64,000 nucleotides of DNA from NCBI GenBank assembly GCA_014879445.1, contig JACSSC010000018.1, positions 1-64,000 of the forward strand, given 5' to 3'. The notes below the pieces were generated by a model. That model had not been told where the DNA came from. It was given only the letters and a program-made list of their open reading frames with translations, and did no database searches. Position numbers and translations under genes: made by a program. The stretch comes from Candidatus Competibacteraceae bacterium (GTDB lineage: Bacteria; Bacteroidota; Bacteroidia; CAIKAF01). Of the stretch, positions 4,261 through 58,331 are shown piece after piece; the first letter of the stretch is position 1; each line of letters opens with the position of its first letter.

Positions 4261-5043
4261 ATGAATAAAGAGAGCAACGCATACATTATTCTTTTTTCTG
4301 TGATTATGGTAGTAATTGTGGGAGTTGGACTGGCTGTTATTGCCCAGATTACCAAACCCAACTACATTAAAAATCAAGAAATAGAGAAAAAACAAAACAT
4401 TCTTTCATCAGTAGGAATTAGAGTATCCCCTTCAGAAGCAGAAGCGACTTATAACAAGCATATTACAGGAAGTGTTGTTTTTAAACAAGATGGTTCTGTT
4501 GTGGATGGGCAAGATGCTTTCCTGGTGGATTTAGCTAAAGAGTTGAAAAAACCAGAAGCGGATCAGTTTTATACCCTGTTTTTTTGTAGTAAAGACAATG
4601 AATCGTTTTATATTATACCCATGCGAGGAAAGGGGCTATGGGATGCGGTTTGGGGATTTGTGGCTGTTAATAATGATGGGATAACCATTGCAGGAGCCAT
4701 GTTCGACCACAAGGGAGAAACTCCCGGATTGGGAGCTGAAATTTCTAAAGAGGGATTCCAAAAACAATTTTTGGGTAAAAAAATTGTTGATGCATCCGGA
4801 GAGTTTAAAGGAGTTGAGGTGGCAAAACAGGGTAAATATCCCGAAGGATATGAACATAGTGTAGACGGCATTTCTGGAGGCACAATAACCAGTAATGGCG
4901 TAAGCGATATGATACAAAAGTATCTAAAAGCATTTCAGGCATATATGAAAGTTAATGTTTCAGCCATACCGGCACCCCAGCCCGAGCCCGAAACATTAGA
5001 TACTTTAGAGACAACTCTAATTGAAGCCGATACAATAAATTAA
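4261..5043 (+). CDS. nqrC: Na+-translocating NADH:quinone reductase subunit C
   Basis: FMN-binding subunit, 260 residues. One N-terminal transmembrane helix (about 8-30) anchors a periplasmic domain. The flavinylation motif reads D-G-I-S-G-G-T at 202-208, so Thr208 is the predicted FMN attachment site; the motif has Gly where the usual consensus has Ala (SGAT). 'HKGETPGLGAEI' at 150-161 is the other strong NqrC/RnfG signature. The last 30 residues are an acidic, Pro/Glu-rich tail (PAPQPEPETLDTLE) that is longer than in the Vibrio protein. The gene sits 3 bases after nqrB and 23 before nqrD. Confidence 0.95.
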   Translation: MNKESNAYIILFSVIMVVIVGVGLAVIAQITKPNYIKNQEIEKKQNILSSVGIRVSPSEAEATYNKHITGSVVFKQDGSVVDGQDAFLVDLAKELKKPEADQFYTLFFCSKDNESFYIIPMRGKGLWDAVWGFVAVNNDGITIAGAMFDHKGETPGLGAEISKEGFQKQFLGKKIVDASGEFKGVEVAKQGKYPEGYEHSVDGISGGTITSNGVSDMIQKYLKAFQAYMKVNVSAIPAPQPEPETLDTLETTLIEADTIN

Positions 5044-44797: not shown

Positions 44798-45859
44798 CTA
44801 TAACCAATTTTTTCTTCTGAAAAAATACAATAGAACAGCAGCCAACCCAAACATCAACCCCAGCACAATAAAATATCCATAGCGCCATTCAAGCTCAGGC
44901 ATGTGCTTAAAATTCATTCCGTAAATGCCCGCAATCAGAGACAAACACATAAAGACAGTTGAAATAATTGTCAGCGTTTTCATGATGTTGTTCATCGTTT
45001 GATTTGTGCCTGAAAGATATATATGTATCAATCCGTTTACCTTGTCCCACGATTGGTCCAATGTTTCTACTATATGTACCACGTGATCCATCAGGTCGCG
45101 GATAAACAGTTTTGTCTTTCTTTTTATCAGCGAGTTTTCTGATTTGTAAAACGCATACACAACCTCTCTGCCTGGCAGCATAACCCTTTTCAGATTATTG
45201 AACTCATTTTTATTGTCCATAATTTCTGCTAACTCTGATTTCCCTGTTACTAAATATAAGCGCTCTTCTAACTCGTCTATTGATTTATCAAACCACTCAC
45301 AAATCACAAAATAATTATCCACAATTGCATCCAGCAATGCGTACATCAGATAATCGCTGCCGCGTGTTCTTATTTTTGTTGCACCTGTTCGTAGGCGGTT
45401 GCGCACACCGTCAAACACATCTCCCTCTTCTTCCTGAAATGTGATGAGCAACCGTTCTTTCATCACAAACGATAATTGCTCAGCCATTAAGCCGCCATTT
45501 TCCACATACAAATCTTTAATGATACAAAAAATATAATCATCATATTCATCATACTTTGGGCGTGTTTGCGTATTCAAGATGTCTTCCAGCGACAAGGGGT
45601 CTAATTCAAAAACATGACCTATTTGTTCGATCTGCTTTACGTCATGCACCCCATCAATGTTTATCCACACATTATAATCATTGCTTATCCACGCTTGCAG
45701 GTTATCGGACGATGTGAGCACTGTTTCTTCAAAGTGATTATCATTGTAACGAATAATGGTAATGCGTACCGGCTTTACCTCTGCATCTCCTACATAAATC
45801 AGCGATCCGGGAGGCATTCCTGTTTTTTTTATTCGAGATGGCTTTAGCGGTGTGCTCAT
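44798..45859 (-). CDS. corA: CorA-family magnesium/cobalt transporter
   Basis: 353 residues. The long cytoplasmic N-terminal domain is followed by two C-terminal helices, with the selectivity motif G-M-N at 314-316 ('GIYGMNFKHMPE') between them. 'PLSLEDILNTQTRPKYDEYDDY' is the conserved N-terminal block. The chain ends in a basic tail (RRKNWL). The start ATG overlaps the mscS stop by four bases (ATGA), so the two genes are translated together. Mg2+ uptake is the standard role, and pairing with a mechanosensitive channel suggests osmotic or divalent-ion homeostasis. Confidence 0.93.
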   Translation of the reverse strand: MSTPLKPSRIKKTGMPPGSLIYVGDAEVKPVRITIIRYNDNHFEETVLTSSDNLQAWISNDYNVWINIDGVHDVKQIEQIGHVFELDPLSLEDILNTQTRPKYDEYDDYIFCIIKDLYVENGGLMAEQLSFVMKERLLITFQEEEGDVFDGVRNRLRTGATKIRTRGSDYLMYALLDAIVDNYFVICEWFDKSIDELEERLYLVTGKSELAEIMDNKNEFNNLKRVMLPGREVVYAFYKSENSLIKRKTKLFIRDLMDHVVHIVETLDQSWDKVNGLIHIYLSGTNQTMNNIMKTLTIISTVFMCLSLIAGIYGMNFKHMPELEWRYGYFIVLGLMFGLAAVLLYFFRRKNWL

Positions 45860-46713
45860 GGGTTTTTTTGTACAATGTTTAAGTATGGATAAGGGATTTC
45901 TATTCCCTCTTTATCAAATCGAAGTTTTACACTTTTATTCAAATCTGTCATCAATCGAAACGACTCAGCTGAGTTGCGGCCGCATACATAACCCCTCAAT
46001 AATACACCATAATCTGCCAAGCGCAGTACAATCACATTTACTTTTGGCTCTTTGGCGTCAACCTGCTCTTGCGTACGAGGATCTACAAACAGAGGATGCC
46101 GCTCGGCCTCGTCGGCAATAATCTGGCAAGCCAAATCTATATTGCTGGTATAACTGATTGTTACTTCAAAAAATCGCACAATTTTTTCATCAACAATGGT
46201 GCGGTTTATCAAAATTTCTGTGCTTATGACGGTATTAGGGACAACGATTCTTTTATTTTCAAAATTACGAATCACGGTATGTCGCAGCGTAATATCTTCC
46301 ACCAATCCGGCAAATTCATTATTTTTATTTCCAATTTCTATCACGTCACCTATTCTGAAGGGCTTAAACATGACAATAAATATTCCATTAATGATGTTAG
46401 AAAAAGCCGTTTGCGAAGCAAAGCCAAGTATCGCCGCAATAATTCCGGCTCCGGCAAATAATGTAACGGCAATTTGTTTAAATGCCGGTATTGAATAAAT
46501 TATACTCAGCGAAGTAAATATCACAATGATAAATGTCAATGCATTTTTCAAAAAGTTATATGCGGTTGGGTCAACATTGATTCGCGCTGATTCCCTTTTA
46601 AAGTATGCCGAGATCATTGTTCGCAACAGCTTGTTCAACAAAAATGCTACAGCAACAATGATGATGATTTTAAAAACCGGCTCGTAATCTGTATATATTT
46701 CCTTCCAGTTCAT
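45856..46713 (-). CDS. MscS-family small-conductance mechanosensitive channel
   Basis: 285 residues: three N-terminal transmembrane segments, the pore helix region 'LFAGAGIIAAILGFASQTAFSNIINGIFI' (TM3, Gly/Ala-rich), then the cytoplasmic beta/alpha vestibule ('FRIGDVIEIGNKNNEFAGLVEDITLRHTVIRNFENKRIVVPNT'). This is the compact MscS core that opens under hypo-osmotic stress to release solutes. It is a normal length with no extra domains. Stop and corA start overlap as ATGA. Upstream of the start lies the GC-rich intergenic element. Confidence 0.92.
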   Translation of the reverse strand: MNWKEIYTDYEPVFKIIIIVAVAFLLNKLLRTMISAYFKRESARINVDPTAYNFLKNALTFIIVIFTSLSIIYSIPAFKQIAVTLFAGAGIIAAILGFASQTAFSNIINGIFIVMFKPFRIGDVIEIGNKNNEFAGLVEDITLRHTVIRNFENKRIVVPNTVISTEILINRTIVDEKIVRFFEVTISYTSNIDLACQIIADEAERHPLFVDPRTQEQVDAKEPKVNVIVLRLADYGVLLRGYVCGRNSAESFRLMTDLNKSVKLRFDKEGIEIPYPYLNIVQKNP

Positions 46714-46775
46714 TTGTACAAAAATACCTTTATTCTTTCATAATTCCATTTTGAGATTATTGAAAGCGCTTTTGG

Positions 46776-46890
46776 GGGCCAGCCACCCCACCTCCTTTCC
46801 CAATGCTTCGTGTCGCCGGGCGCTACGTTCATAGTCCTCGCGGCTTCAGGCCGCTCCGGGCTGCCACTTCGCTCCCTGGCCCGAAAAAAA
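46776..46890. repeat. GC-rich structured intergenic element, possibly a dispersed repeat
   Basis: About 110 bases, much richer in GC than the surroundings. GGGCCAG at 46776-46782 is complementary to CTGGCCC at 46876-46882 and closes the element. Inside are GC hairpins such as GCGGC-TTCAG-GCCGC (near 46840-46855) and a CGCCGGGCGCT block. A run of A follows (46884-46890), which reads as T on the minus strand. It lies upstream of mscS and of the TPR protein gene, which are divergent. A mobile or repeat-like element is my inference; no copy is present elsewhere in this window. Confidence 0.5.
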
Positions 46891-46949
46891 TACCATTAAA
46901 TAGAAGCTTTTGTGTGAAAAGATTTCAGTACTTTCGTTTCTGTGCTTAA

Positions 46950-49076
46950 TTGGTTATGAAAAAGAAAACATATAACAAGCCCAAGCCAAAATCTAGCCCA
47001 CCGCCCGAAATGCCACCTATAGTGGCCTATGGGGCGCACTATCCCCTGTTTTTTGCCTTGTTTTGTGCTGTTTTGGGGTTGGGTTTGTATATCCAAACCA
47101 TTGGCCATGATTATGTACTCGATGACGAAATGGTTACTTTCAAAAACACCATCGTTACGCAAGGGTTTTCGGCTATCCCTGATATTCTTACTACACCTTA
47201 TCGTCAAGGGTTTTGGGATCGAAAAGAAAGTTTATACCGCCCCCTCTCACTTGTGATGTTTGCTGCTGAATGGCAAATTGCACCCAACCAACCCTGGCTT
47301 CATCATTTGATGAACATTTTGCTTTATGCGCTCACCGGATGGCTGGTTTATCGCCTTTTTCATCGCCTCACATGGTCGCTTCATCCACTTATCCCTCTTT
47401 CAGCAGCTATATTGTTTATGGTGCATCCGTTGCATACGGAAGTAGTTGCTAATATTAAAAGCCGCGATGAGATGCTGGCTTTAATGTTTGGTGTTTTGGC
47501 CTTGCAACAGTTTTTGAATTATGTGCAATCTTCAAAATTTGTTCATCTGTTTTGGGGTGCATTATCTTTCTTTTTGGCTGTTTTGGCTAAAGAAAGTGCG
47601 ATTACCTTATTTGCTGTTTTGCCCATAACCCTCTTTTTCTTTGCAAAGCCACAAACGCGCCATTACCTTGTTTCGCTTGTCGTTTTGTTTGTTGCTATTT
47701 TGGCTTATTTTGGCTTACGTATAGCAGCGTTAGGAGAAATTTCAAATTTCAAAGAAATTGCAGTAATCAATAATTCCATTGTGGCAGCAAGCAATTCCTC
47801 CGAACATTTTGCTACTGCCATTGTGCTTGTGGGCGCATATTTGCGACTCTTTATTTTACCACATCCCCTAAGCTACGATTATTCATTCAATACCTTTCCT
47901 GTTGCACGTTTTTCTGAACCGGCGTTTTTACTATCTATGGCCGCAATCGTGGCAATTGTTGTTTATGTGGCCATGAATTGGAAACGCAAAGATCCCGCCG
48001 CTTACGGATTATTGTTTTTTGGCCTTACCATTTCTATTGTGTCTAATTTGGTTATTATTATCGAAGCGACCCTGGGAGAGCGATTCGCGTATTTGCCATC
48101 ATTAGGCCTAAGTTTGGCTTTCCCTGTTTTGATATCGCGCTTATTTAAGCTTAGTCATAAATCTGCTCATTTCTCATTCGGGGCTATGCTGTCGGCCAAC
48201 AAATCGTTTGTTGTTGTCTTGGGCATTGTTATCGTTCTTTTTTCGATTAAAACCATATCTCGTAATCCTGATTGGAAAACCAGTGCCACACTTTTTGCTG
48301 CCGACAAAGACAATAATCCTCGTAGTGCCCGAACTCAGTTTGCATATGCCAGCAATATGCTGCACAAAAAAATTATTCCAATGGACGACTCAAATCCTAA
48401 AAAGAATGTCCTTACACGTGAAGCCATCGAATATCTCAATCGCAGTATCAAAATTATGCCCGATTATTTTGACGCCTGGGTTCACTTGCTCATTGCATAC
48501 CGACAGGTTAAAGATTTTCCTTTAGCTCGCCAGGCATATGAGACCGGATTAAAATATAAAAACAAAGACAATATTGATTTCTTTATTCAAGGGGCATTAA
48601 CCTATTCAGATATGGGCATGTGGCAAGAAGCTATTGAGGCCAACCGACTAGCGTTACAACTCGACACCTCTCGTGCTGAAATATGGAATAATTATGGAAT
48701 GTGCCTAACAGAAACCGGCAACCGGCTCGATGGATTTAATGCCCTGTATCATTCTCTTCAGCTGGATAGCTCGCAATCAAACACTTGGTATAACCTCGGA
48801 AACTGGCATGCCAAAGGTGGAGATTACAATAATGCGATTCTTCATTACAGCAAAGCATTGCAGCGCGATTCTGCTCATATCGGATCGCTTAATAATACAG
48901 GCAATAGCTATGCTGCCATGGGGCAGTATAATACGGCTCTTATTTATTATGAAAAAACGCTTTCTATTCAACCTAACAACGGAGAAGCCATCCGCAATAT
49001 TGGCATTACTTATAACATACTAGGGCAACCCGATAAGGCAAACGAGTACTTGAAACGCCTCAGCAACAAGCCATAG
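46950..49076 (+). CDS. Membrane glycosyltransferase-like (TMTC/PMT-type) protein with C-terminal TPRs
   Basis: 708 residues (an in-frame ATG at 46956 is an alternative start). A basic, Pro-rich N-terminus (KKKTYNKPKPKSSPPPEMPP) precedes a polytopic domain of about 11 helices to roughly residue 435. Its first loop, 'IGHDYVLDDEMVTFKNTIV', has the D-D motif and its later loop 'HPLHTEVVANIKSRDEMLA' the pattern of TMTC O-mannosyltransferase-like proteins. From about 445 on it has several TPRs ('AEIWNNYGMCLTETGNRLDGFNALYHSLQLD' type). In Bacteroidota, such proteins are common but uncharacterised. Protein O-glycosylation is a hypothesis. Confidence 0.8.
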   Translation: MVMKKKTYNKPKPKSSPPPEMPPIVAYGAHYPLFFALFCAVLGLGLYIQTIGHDYVLDDEMVTFKNTIVTQGFSAIPDILTTPYRQGFWDRKESLYRPLSLVMFAAEWQIAPNQPWLHHLMNILLYALTGWLVYRLFHRLTWSLHPLIPLSAAILFMVHPLHTEVVANIKSRDEMLALMFGVLALQQFLNYVQSSKFVHLFWGALSFFLAVLAKESAITLFAVLPITLFFFAKPQTRHYLVSLVVLFVAILAYFGLRIAALGEISNFKEIAVINNSIVAASNSSEHFATAIVLVGAYLRLFILPHPLSYDYSFNTFPVARFSEPAFLLSMAAIVAIVVYVAMNWKRKDPAAYGLLFFGLTISIVSNLVIIIEATLGERFAYLPSLGLSLAFPVLISRLFKLSHKSAHFSFGAMLSANKSFVVVLGIVIVLFSIKTISRNPDWKTSATLFAADKDNNPRSARTQFAYASNMLHKKIIPMDDSNPKKNVLTREAIEYLNRSIKIMPDYFDAWVHLLIAYRQVKDFPLARQAYETGLKYKNKDNIDFFIQGALTYSDMGMWQEAIEANRLALQLDTSRAEIWNNYGMCLTETGNRLDGFNALYHSLQLDSSQSNTWYNLGNWHAKGGDYNNAILHYSKALQRDSAHIGSLNNTGNSYAAMGQYNTALIYYEKTLSIQPNNGEAIRNIGITYNILGQPDKANEYLKRLSNKP

Positions 49077-58258: not shown

Positions 58259-58331
58259 GGTTTGGTAGCTCAGTTGGTAGAGCAAAGGACTGAAAATCCT
58301 TGTGTCGGCGGTTCGATTCCGCCCCAAACCA
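58259..58331 (+). tRNA. tRNA-Phe (anticodon GAA)
   Basis: 73 bases. The acceptor stem GGTTTGG pairs with CCAAACC; the D-arm is AGCTCAGTTGGTAGAGC; the anticodon stem-loop is GGACTGAAAATCC, with anticodon GAA; the T-arm is GGCGGTTCGATTCCGCC. No CCA is encoded; the discriminator A is followed directly by CAAAG. A terminator follows 1 base later. Confidence 0.97.

Follow-up and report, generated by a model that had tools for sequence, protein, structure and literature searches.

A GC-rich element between divergent genes

The window, by which is meant the whole stretch of 64,000 nucleotides that was analysed, contains an intergenic gap bounded by a gene for an MscS-type channel (45856-46713, minus strand) and a TPR gene (46950-49076, plus strand). 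The gap holds a GC-rich block, an element of about 113 bases (46770-46882, minus strand) that is delimited by its complementary ends, by a scripted search for an outer helix followed by CC and by a family-model match inside it. The divergent orientation of the two genes, given in the initial annotation, was confirmed. The GC content is far above that of the surroundings, as had also been claimed (0.57-0.60 over the element versus 0.30-0.52 elsewhere in 45500-48500, in 100-base windows), and is 71% in the 72 bases matched by a covariance model. Rfam reports one feature of the window over threshold, a tRNA gene at 58259-58331.

The complementary ends and the flanking A run described earlier are both present: 46770-46782 and 46876-46888 are 85% complementary over 13 nt, and seven A's are found at 46884-46890. 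These ends form the outer helix, P1, of the family treated below, after which come CC and AAAA. In minus-strand orientation, the 5' strand of P1 comprises six bases (46877-46882) and its 3' strand, P1', lies at 46776-46781, both placed by the complementary ends and the scripted search. The CC and then AAAA directly after P1' (46770-46775) are the usual 3' end of the family according to the same search and a tally of flanks. The inner helix, P2, was located by alignment to the covariance models R1 and R2, with its 5' strand at 46871-46876 (model columns 9-14) and its 3' strand at 46818-46823 (columns 77-82). Between P2 and P1' there are 36 bases (46782-46817), whose place in other copies is taken by a short spacer or a hairpin (P4).

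The internal hairpins that had been proposed were recovered in part. One clear hairpin, the tip hairpin P3 with five base pairs and a loop of five (46840-46854, minus strand), can be read from the sequence and is also found in the fold of the other strand; the region around it varies freely in length across the family. The energy of the block as a whole, however, is no better than that of dinucleotide shuffles on either strand (z 0.44 for plus and 1.99 for minus). Folding energy therefore provides no evidence of structure, and the structural evidence for the window copy was taken from its relatives.

Related elements and the Flavo-1 family

The element had been suggested to belong to a family of dispersed repeats or of small non-autonomous elements. 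This holds for structure, since a structural family and further copies in the source genome were found, but not for a second copy by letters: BLAST of the source genome gave only matches of 14-17 bases besides the element itself. No Rfam family matched the window copy, including in a search at E up to 10, and there was accordingly no match at the gathering threshold of RF01705 (42 bits). A distant nucleotide search with the element against phages gave no match, and neither did a copy from genus g11 used as query against plasmids and phages. Two short matches of the window element to Gordonia plasmids (E 0.1) were taken as chance.

Weak BLAST matches (E 0.001-0.002) were obtained in two genomes of the same taxonomic family, G005 and G007, among 16 genomes searched. 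These genomes contain longer elements with a common core, of which there are six exact matches in G005 and five in G007. A pattern derived from these elements retrieved, in one scan, four loci in Pedobacter cryophilus, Chryseolinea serpens and two Bacteroidota metagenome assemblies. Genus g11, which we take to be Flavobacterium, has five related units that score 40.3-64 bits with RF01705 (Flavo-1), four of them above the cut-off of 42. The loci L055 and L056 score 36.4 and 28.5 bits, and for L012, L016, L020, L053 and L054 RF01705 gave nothing at E up to 1. In L053, from a Bacteroidales assembly, a pair of hairpin repeats in tandem, each about 37 bases long, occurs within the 3' half of the element (about 4680-4780), as if one repeat had entered another.

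At E 0.001 or better, RF01705 has matches in 44 of 296 genomes of the phylum, with scores over the cut-off in 35 of these, and in none of 14 control genomes. At least 15 copies are present in 21 genomes, of which 17 belong to g11. In the taxonomic family of the source genome, 12 of the 16 genomes matched at E 0.5 or better, three over the cut-off; of the 14 controls, two matched at this level and none reached the cut-off. A strict 20-base pattern had given no match across 395 genomes of the phylum, and was judged too strict because RF01705 later matched in 44 of 296.

Flavo-1 and the window copy have the same helix plan and the same internal loops bounded by G-A, and intermediates of 40.3, 36.4 and 28.5 bits connect the two without a break. 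The window copy differs from Flavo-1 in being GC-rich, in the changed letters of the 3' half of its core, in one extra loop base and in the 36 bases before P1'. The Rfam model of RF01705 leaves the outer helix P1 unpaired. The window element is very probably a diverged copy of a dispersed hairpin family whose best-known branch is Flavo-1. Because it falls below the Rfam threshold, it is named Flavo-1-like and not a member of RF01705.

The source genome contains at least 11 copies when RF01705 and R1 are combined and the window copy and the one on contig C7 are included. Two copies match RF01705 under the cut-off (C13, 34.7 bits; C39, 32.3 bits), while C7 has a weak RF01705 match and an R1 score of 36.6 bits. 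The R1 scan, in which 150 of 660 first-look candidates were scored and the window copy and C7 were not among the matches listed, gave at least nine places, namely C13, C39 and seven weaker ones (23.8-27.3 bits, E 0.001-0.01). The seven form one subfamily with a unit of about 114 bases, pairwise identities of 82-95% and ends of one kind. Two of them (L245 and L246) have about 110 further upstream bases in common and two others (L249 and L250) lie at contig ends, where the remaining 26 bases are common to both; the other flanks of the subfamily do not align. With the window copy and this subfamily, the family is wider than the Rfam model.

Covariance models and conserved pairing

The sequences for the models were filtered by regular expressions, which gave 89 raw matches and required the P2 pairs 9-82, 10-81 and 11-80 together with some core letters. 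These pairs and several invariant letters of the resulting alignment A1 are therefore partly a product of construction, while pairs 14-77, 24-67 and 25-66 and columns 68 and 71 are free of selection. After 15 of the 89 had been dropped, some spurious and some real copies that were misread, 74 remained, 52 of them with a short tip. Of the short-tip sequences 39 were placed in A1, from which R1 was built with the window copy left out, and 13 similar ones were omitted. R2 was built from 27 sequences (A2), all of which were retrieved with RF01705 before filtering. A set of 82 elements consists of the 74, the window copy and the seven source-genome copies.

R1, trained among others on two source-genome copies (L120 and L133) and on two loci found by a pattern resembling the letters of the window copy (L055 and L056), matched the window only once at E up to 10, at minus-strand positions 46813-46884 (31.3 bits, E 2.1e-6). 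R2, trained without these four, matched the same region with 28.2 bits (E 2e-5) as the sole match in the 64 kb, by which the window copy is homologous to a profile of RF01705-retrieved sequences. R1 did not detect L012, a real copy with a long tip. Across 51 further loci (157 kb, with some overlap between loci) the only R2 match was in L062, at a position overlapping a Flavo-1 call by Rfam of 67.3 bits.

The ten proposed pairs are formed in 98.2% of the 390 cells of A1, compared with 24-43% when partners are slid by one to three columns and a mean of 74.1% when partners are shuffled. Cells changed on both sides number 89, against at most 15 with slid partners and a mean of 27.3 with shuffled ones. 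The number of further pair types is not above that of shuffles (346 of 500 shuffles were at least as high). Among the pairs free of selection, 14-77 and 24-67 are formed in all 39 sequences, with three and four pair types respectively, and 25-66 in 32. The helices are flanked by A-G or G-A opposites in 39/39 sequences, most of these letters being wholly or partly required by selection, but not column 71. The conserved pairing and the G-A mismatches are confined to one strand.

The outer helix, with at least four paired bases directly followed by CC, was found in 45 of the 82 elements (mean 8.3 and maximum 16 in 200 shuffles), and P1 helices of five or more in 56 (shuffle mean 19.4). The scripted test did not detect P1 with CC in the other 37 elements; in our reading, many of these open with an end helix too short for the test to have counted it. 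Most of 49 tallied elements have A's after the CC.

In the window copy, as read from the alignment, the core helices of Flavo-1 are paired: nine of the ten model pairs are standard and the tenth, 25-66, is C-A, as it is in 6 of 39 relatives. Pairs 13-78, 14-77, 19-72 and 24-67 differ from the commonest family pair on both sides with pairing kept, and 13-78 and 14-77 are of pair types absent from A1.

These results bear on the explanation that the block is a chance GC-rich stretch or an unrelated remnant with an accidental likeness to the family, which would accord with its being a single copy by letters, with a fold no better than shuffles and with the lack of an Rfam match. The R1 and R2 matches, sole ones in the window, and the near absence of R2 matches in the other loci, where the one hit was itself Flavo-1, argue against it. 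So do the two pairs, 13-78 and 14-77, that changed on both sides and are still paired, and the outer helix with CC and AAAA, which agrees although it lies outside the models. An accidental likeness is thus highly improbable.

Dispersal, possible mobility and comparison with known systems

In the sister species G002 the mscS and TPR genes are adjacent, and the space between them contains no element and no R1 or R2 match. As this genome keeps the gene pair without the element, the latter, for which a possible influence on both genes had been suggested, is not a conserved regulator of the pair. The two genes lie on separate contigs in G001, and only mscS was matched in G003. A second case of presence and absence is the L016 element of G005, which by eye begins four bases past the stop codon of a gene. 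The stretch aligns along its full length in G007, and the homologous gene end in G004, G006, G008 and G009 has no element. No precise empty insertion site was obtained, as the adjacent bases no longer align at the element-free sites. In G005 an identical 69-base core occurs at two sites about 330 kb apart, and in G272 another unit occurs 14 times, with no alignment between the flanks of its copies (10 pairs of copies measured).

An exchange of element places between G005 and G007 was considered and dropped, the sites being orthologous. In two of the five orthologous pairs (L013/L020 and L014/L017) the homology between the two genomes ends within about 30 bases 5' of the element, as it might at the breakpoints of rearrangements. 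Next to the L015 element on its upstream side, G007 carries about 147 bases (about 1215-1362) that the G005 site lacks and that are in part similar to the sequence flanking L014 upstream.

The target-site duplication sought after the initial annotation was not found in the family: over 49 elements the longest word shared by the two flanks is 4.06 bases on average, versus 4.09 for re-paired flanks. A 13-base direct repeat near the window element was rejected as a target duplication, since one copy lies at least 37 bases from the element and this distant copy resembles a promoter box of mscS.

When 76 elements were sorted by their neighbouring genes, 17 had convergent and 13 divergent neighbours, and tandem neighbours were on the strand opposite to the element in 23 cases and on its own strand in 11; the remaining 12 overlapped a crude ORF call. 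The 64 elements outside ORF calls and the 17 between convergent genes would suit a transcription terminator or a similar structural punctuation between genes. The 13 between divergent genes, as in the case of the window copy, would not, and a simple scan found no terminator-like site on either strand of 46600-47050. The window element is not a stem-loop followed by a T run: with T's on its 5' side and A's on its 3' side, no such run comes after the hairpin on the pairing strand. A terminator is therefore very unlikely.

The elements are dispersed and have sharp ends and a paired consensus, and they differ in presence between relatives. This scatter of sharply bounded copies, their variable presence and their indifference to the direction of genes are compatible with a unit of mobile DNA, and the maintenance of pairing on one strand points to recognition of that strand in its folded form. 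The window element is accordingly regarded, with somewhat more confidence than doubt, as a diverged copy of a family that spreads as a non-autonomous mobile DNA hairpin. One strand (minus here) can fold into P1, P2, short helices, internal loops bounded by G-A mismatches and a tip of free length. A hypothetical enzyme encoded elsewhere would recognise the folded single strand and would place the element without target duplication, mostly in intergenic DNA. We infer the single-stranded DNA route, the mobilising enzyme and any present-day movement.

Several points count against mobility. The source-genome copies are 82-95% identical, so that present-day movement can be presumed at most, and the further pair types did not exceed those of shuffles. 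Pairing on one strand is equally expected of an RNA, and the units could instead be small RNAs or parts of mRNAs whose fold acts, for example, by protein binding. Flavo-1 is filed by Rfam as an sRNA gene and has a 'y' in the first column of a table in a 2010 paper (PMC2864571), taken here as 'likely RNA'; the G-A mismatches are also restricted to one strand. A transcriptome study of F. psychrophilum notes several 5' transcribed regions that coincide with Flavo-1 matches, a point for RNA and against mobile DNA, but also that the matches are indistinctly sense or antisense and in many cases outside transcribed regions, which agrees with mobile DNA (PMC9723704). Further against an RNA are the lack of a preferred gene arrangement among the 76 elements, the many dispersed and sharply bounded copies per genome and the small number of G-U pairs (7 of 390 A1 cells), with a weak hint from the tips (G-U in 46 of 965 pairs versus 12.2% in shuffled tips). 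An RNA role is hence rather unlikely, and the sharp ends, the lack of target duplication and the lack of preferred orientation fit a mobile hairpin better than an RNA gene or a terminator.

In the same transcriptome study no real clue to the function of Flavo-1 emerged, and a 2022 survey counts it among the most abundant small-RNA families while leaving its function blank (PMC9029176). RF01705 also occurs in PMC3765529 and PMC7682815. The literature searched, which lies mostly outside subscription journals, yielded no proposal of a mobile-DNA role. It is tentatively proposed, as a possibility somewhat short of probable, that Flavo-1 is the fold of Bacteroidota mobile DNA hairpins and not an RNA gene, placed by an enzyme without target duplication, and that the window copy and the seven-copy subfamily are branches unreported by Rfam. 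Should they prove to be mobile DNA, the present small-RNA annotation of the family would be wrong and a mobilising enzyme would await discovery. The window copy is a variant of a known, unexplained kind of repeat.

One candidate mover that was considered is the RAYT (Y1) transposase of REP/REPIN elements, the subject of PMC3116915 and PMC3733652. Y1_Tnp had no match in the source genome (G000) at E 0.001 and none in G004 and G009, although all three hold copies. Among the best 20 of 41 Y1_Tnp places, one had a Flavo-1 match over the cut-off nearby and one more a match at 36.4 bits; elements flanking the transposase gene, as in REP/REPIN, were not the rule there. In a set of 15 genomes, elements are present in 10/10 genomes with Y1_Tnp and in 3/5 without. 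Y1_Tnp is not supported as the mover of the family, though a looser link may exist.

Matches of another family, Acido-Lenti-1 (RF01687), were observed near Y1_Tnp genes. One is over the cut-off (L076 in G169, 784-828, 39.9 bits); others are below it, among them four about 145 bases apart in L080 (G185, 108-869), and L082 (G040, 1829-1860) is matched too. These may be repeats that accompany those Y1 transposases.

Integron attC sites have paired ends, conserved unpaired positions and a variable tip. The likeness of the Flavo-1-like elements to them is one of layout only, with paired ends, conserved unpaired positions and a tip of variable length; the letters of the attC ends are different. REP/REPIN elements are moved by RAYT (Y1) transposases, whereas G000, G004 and G009 hold Flavo-1-like copies without a Y1_Tnp match. 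The two kinds of element are otherwise alike in that both are small, intergenic and dispersed, have no ORF, possess a folded strand and are without target duplication.
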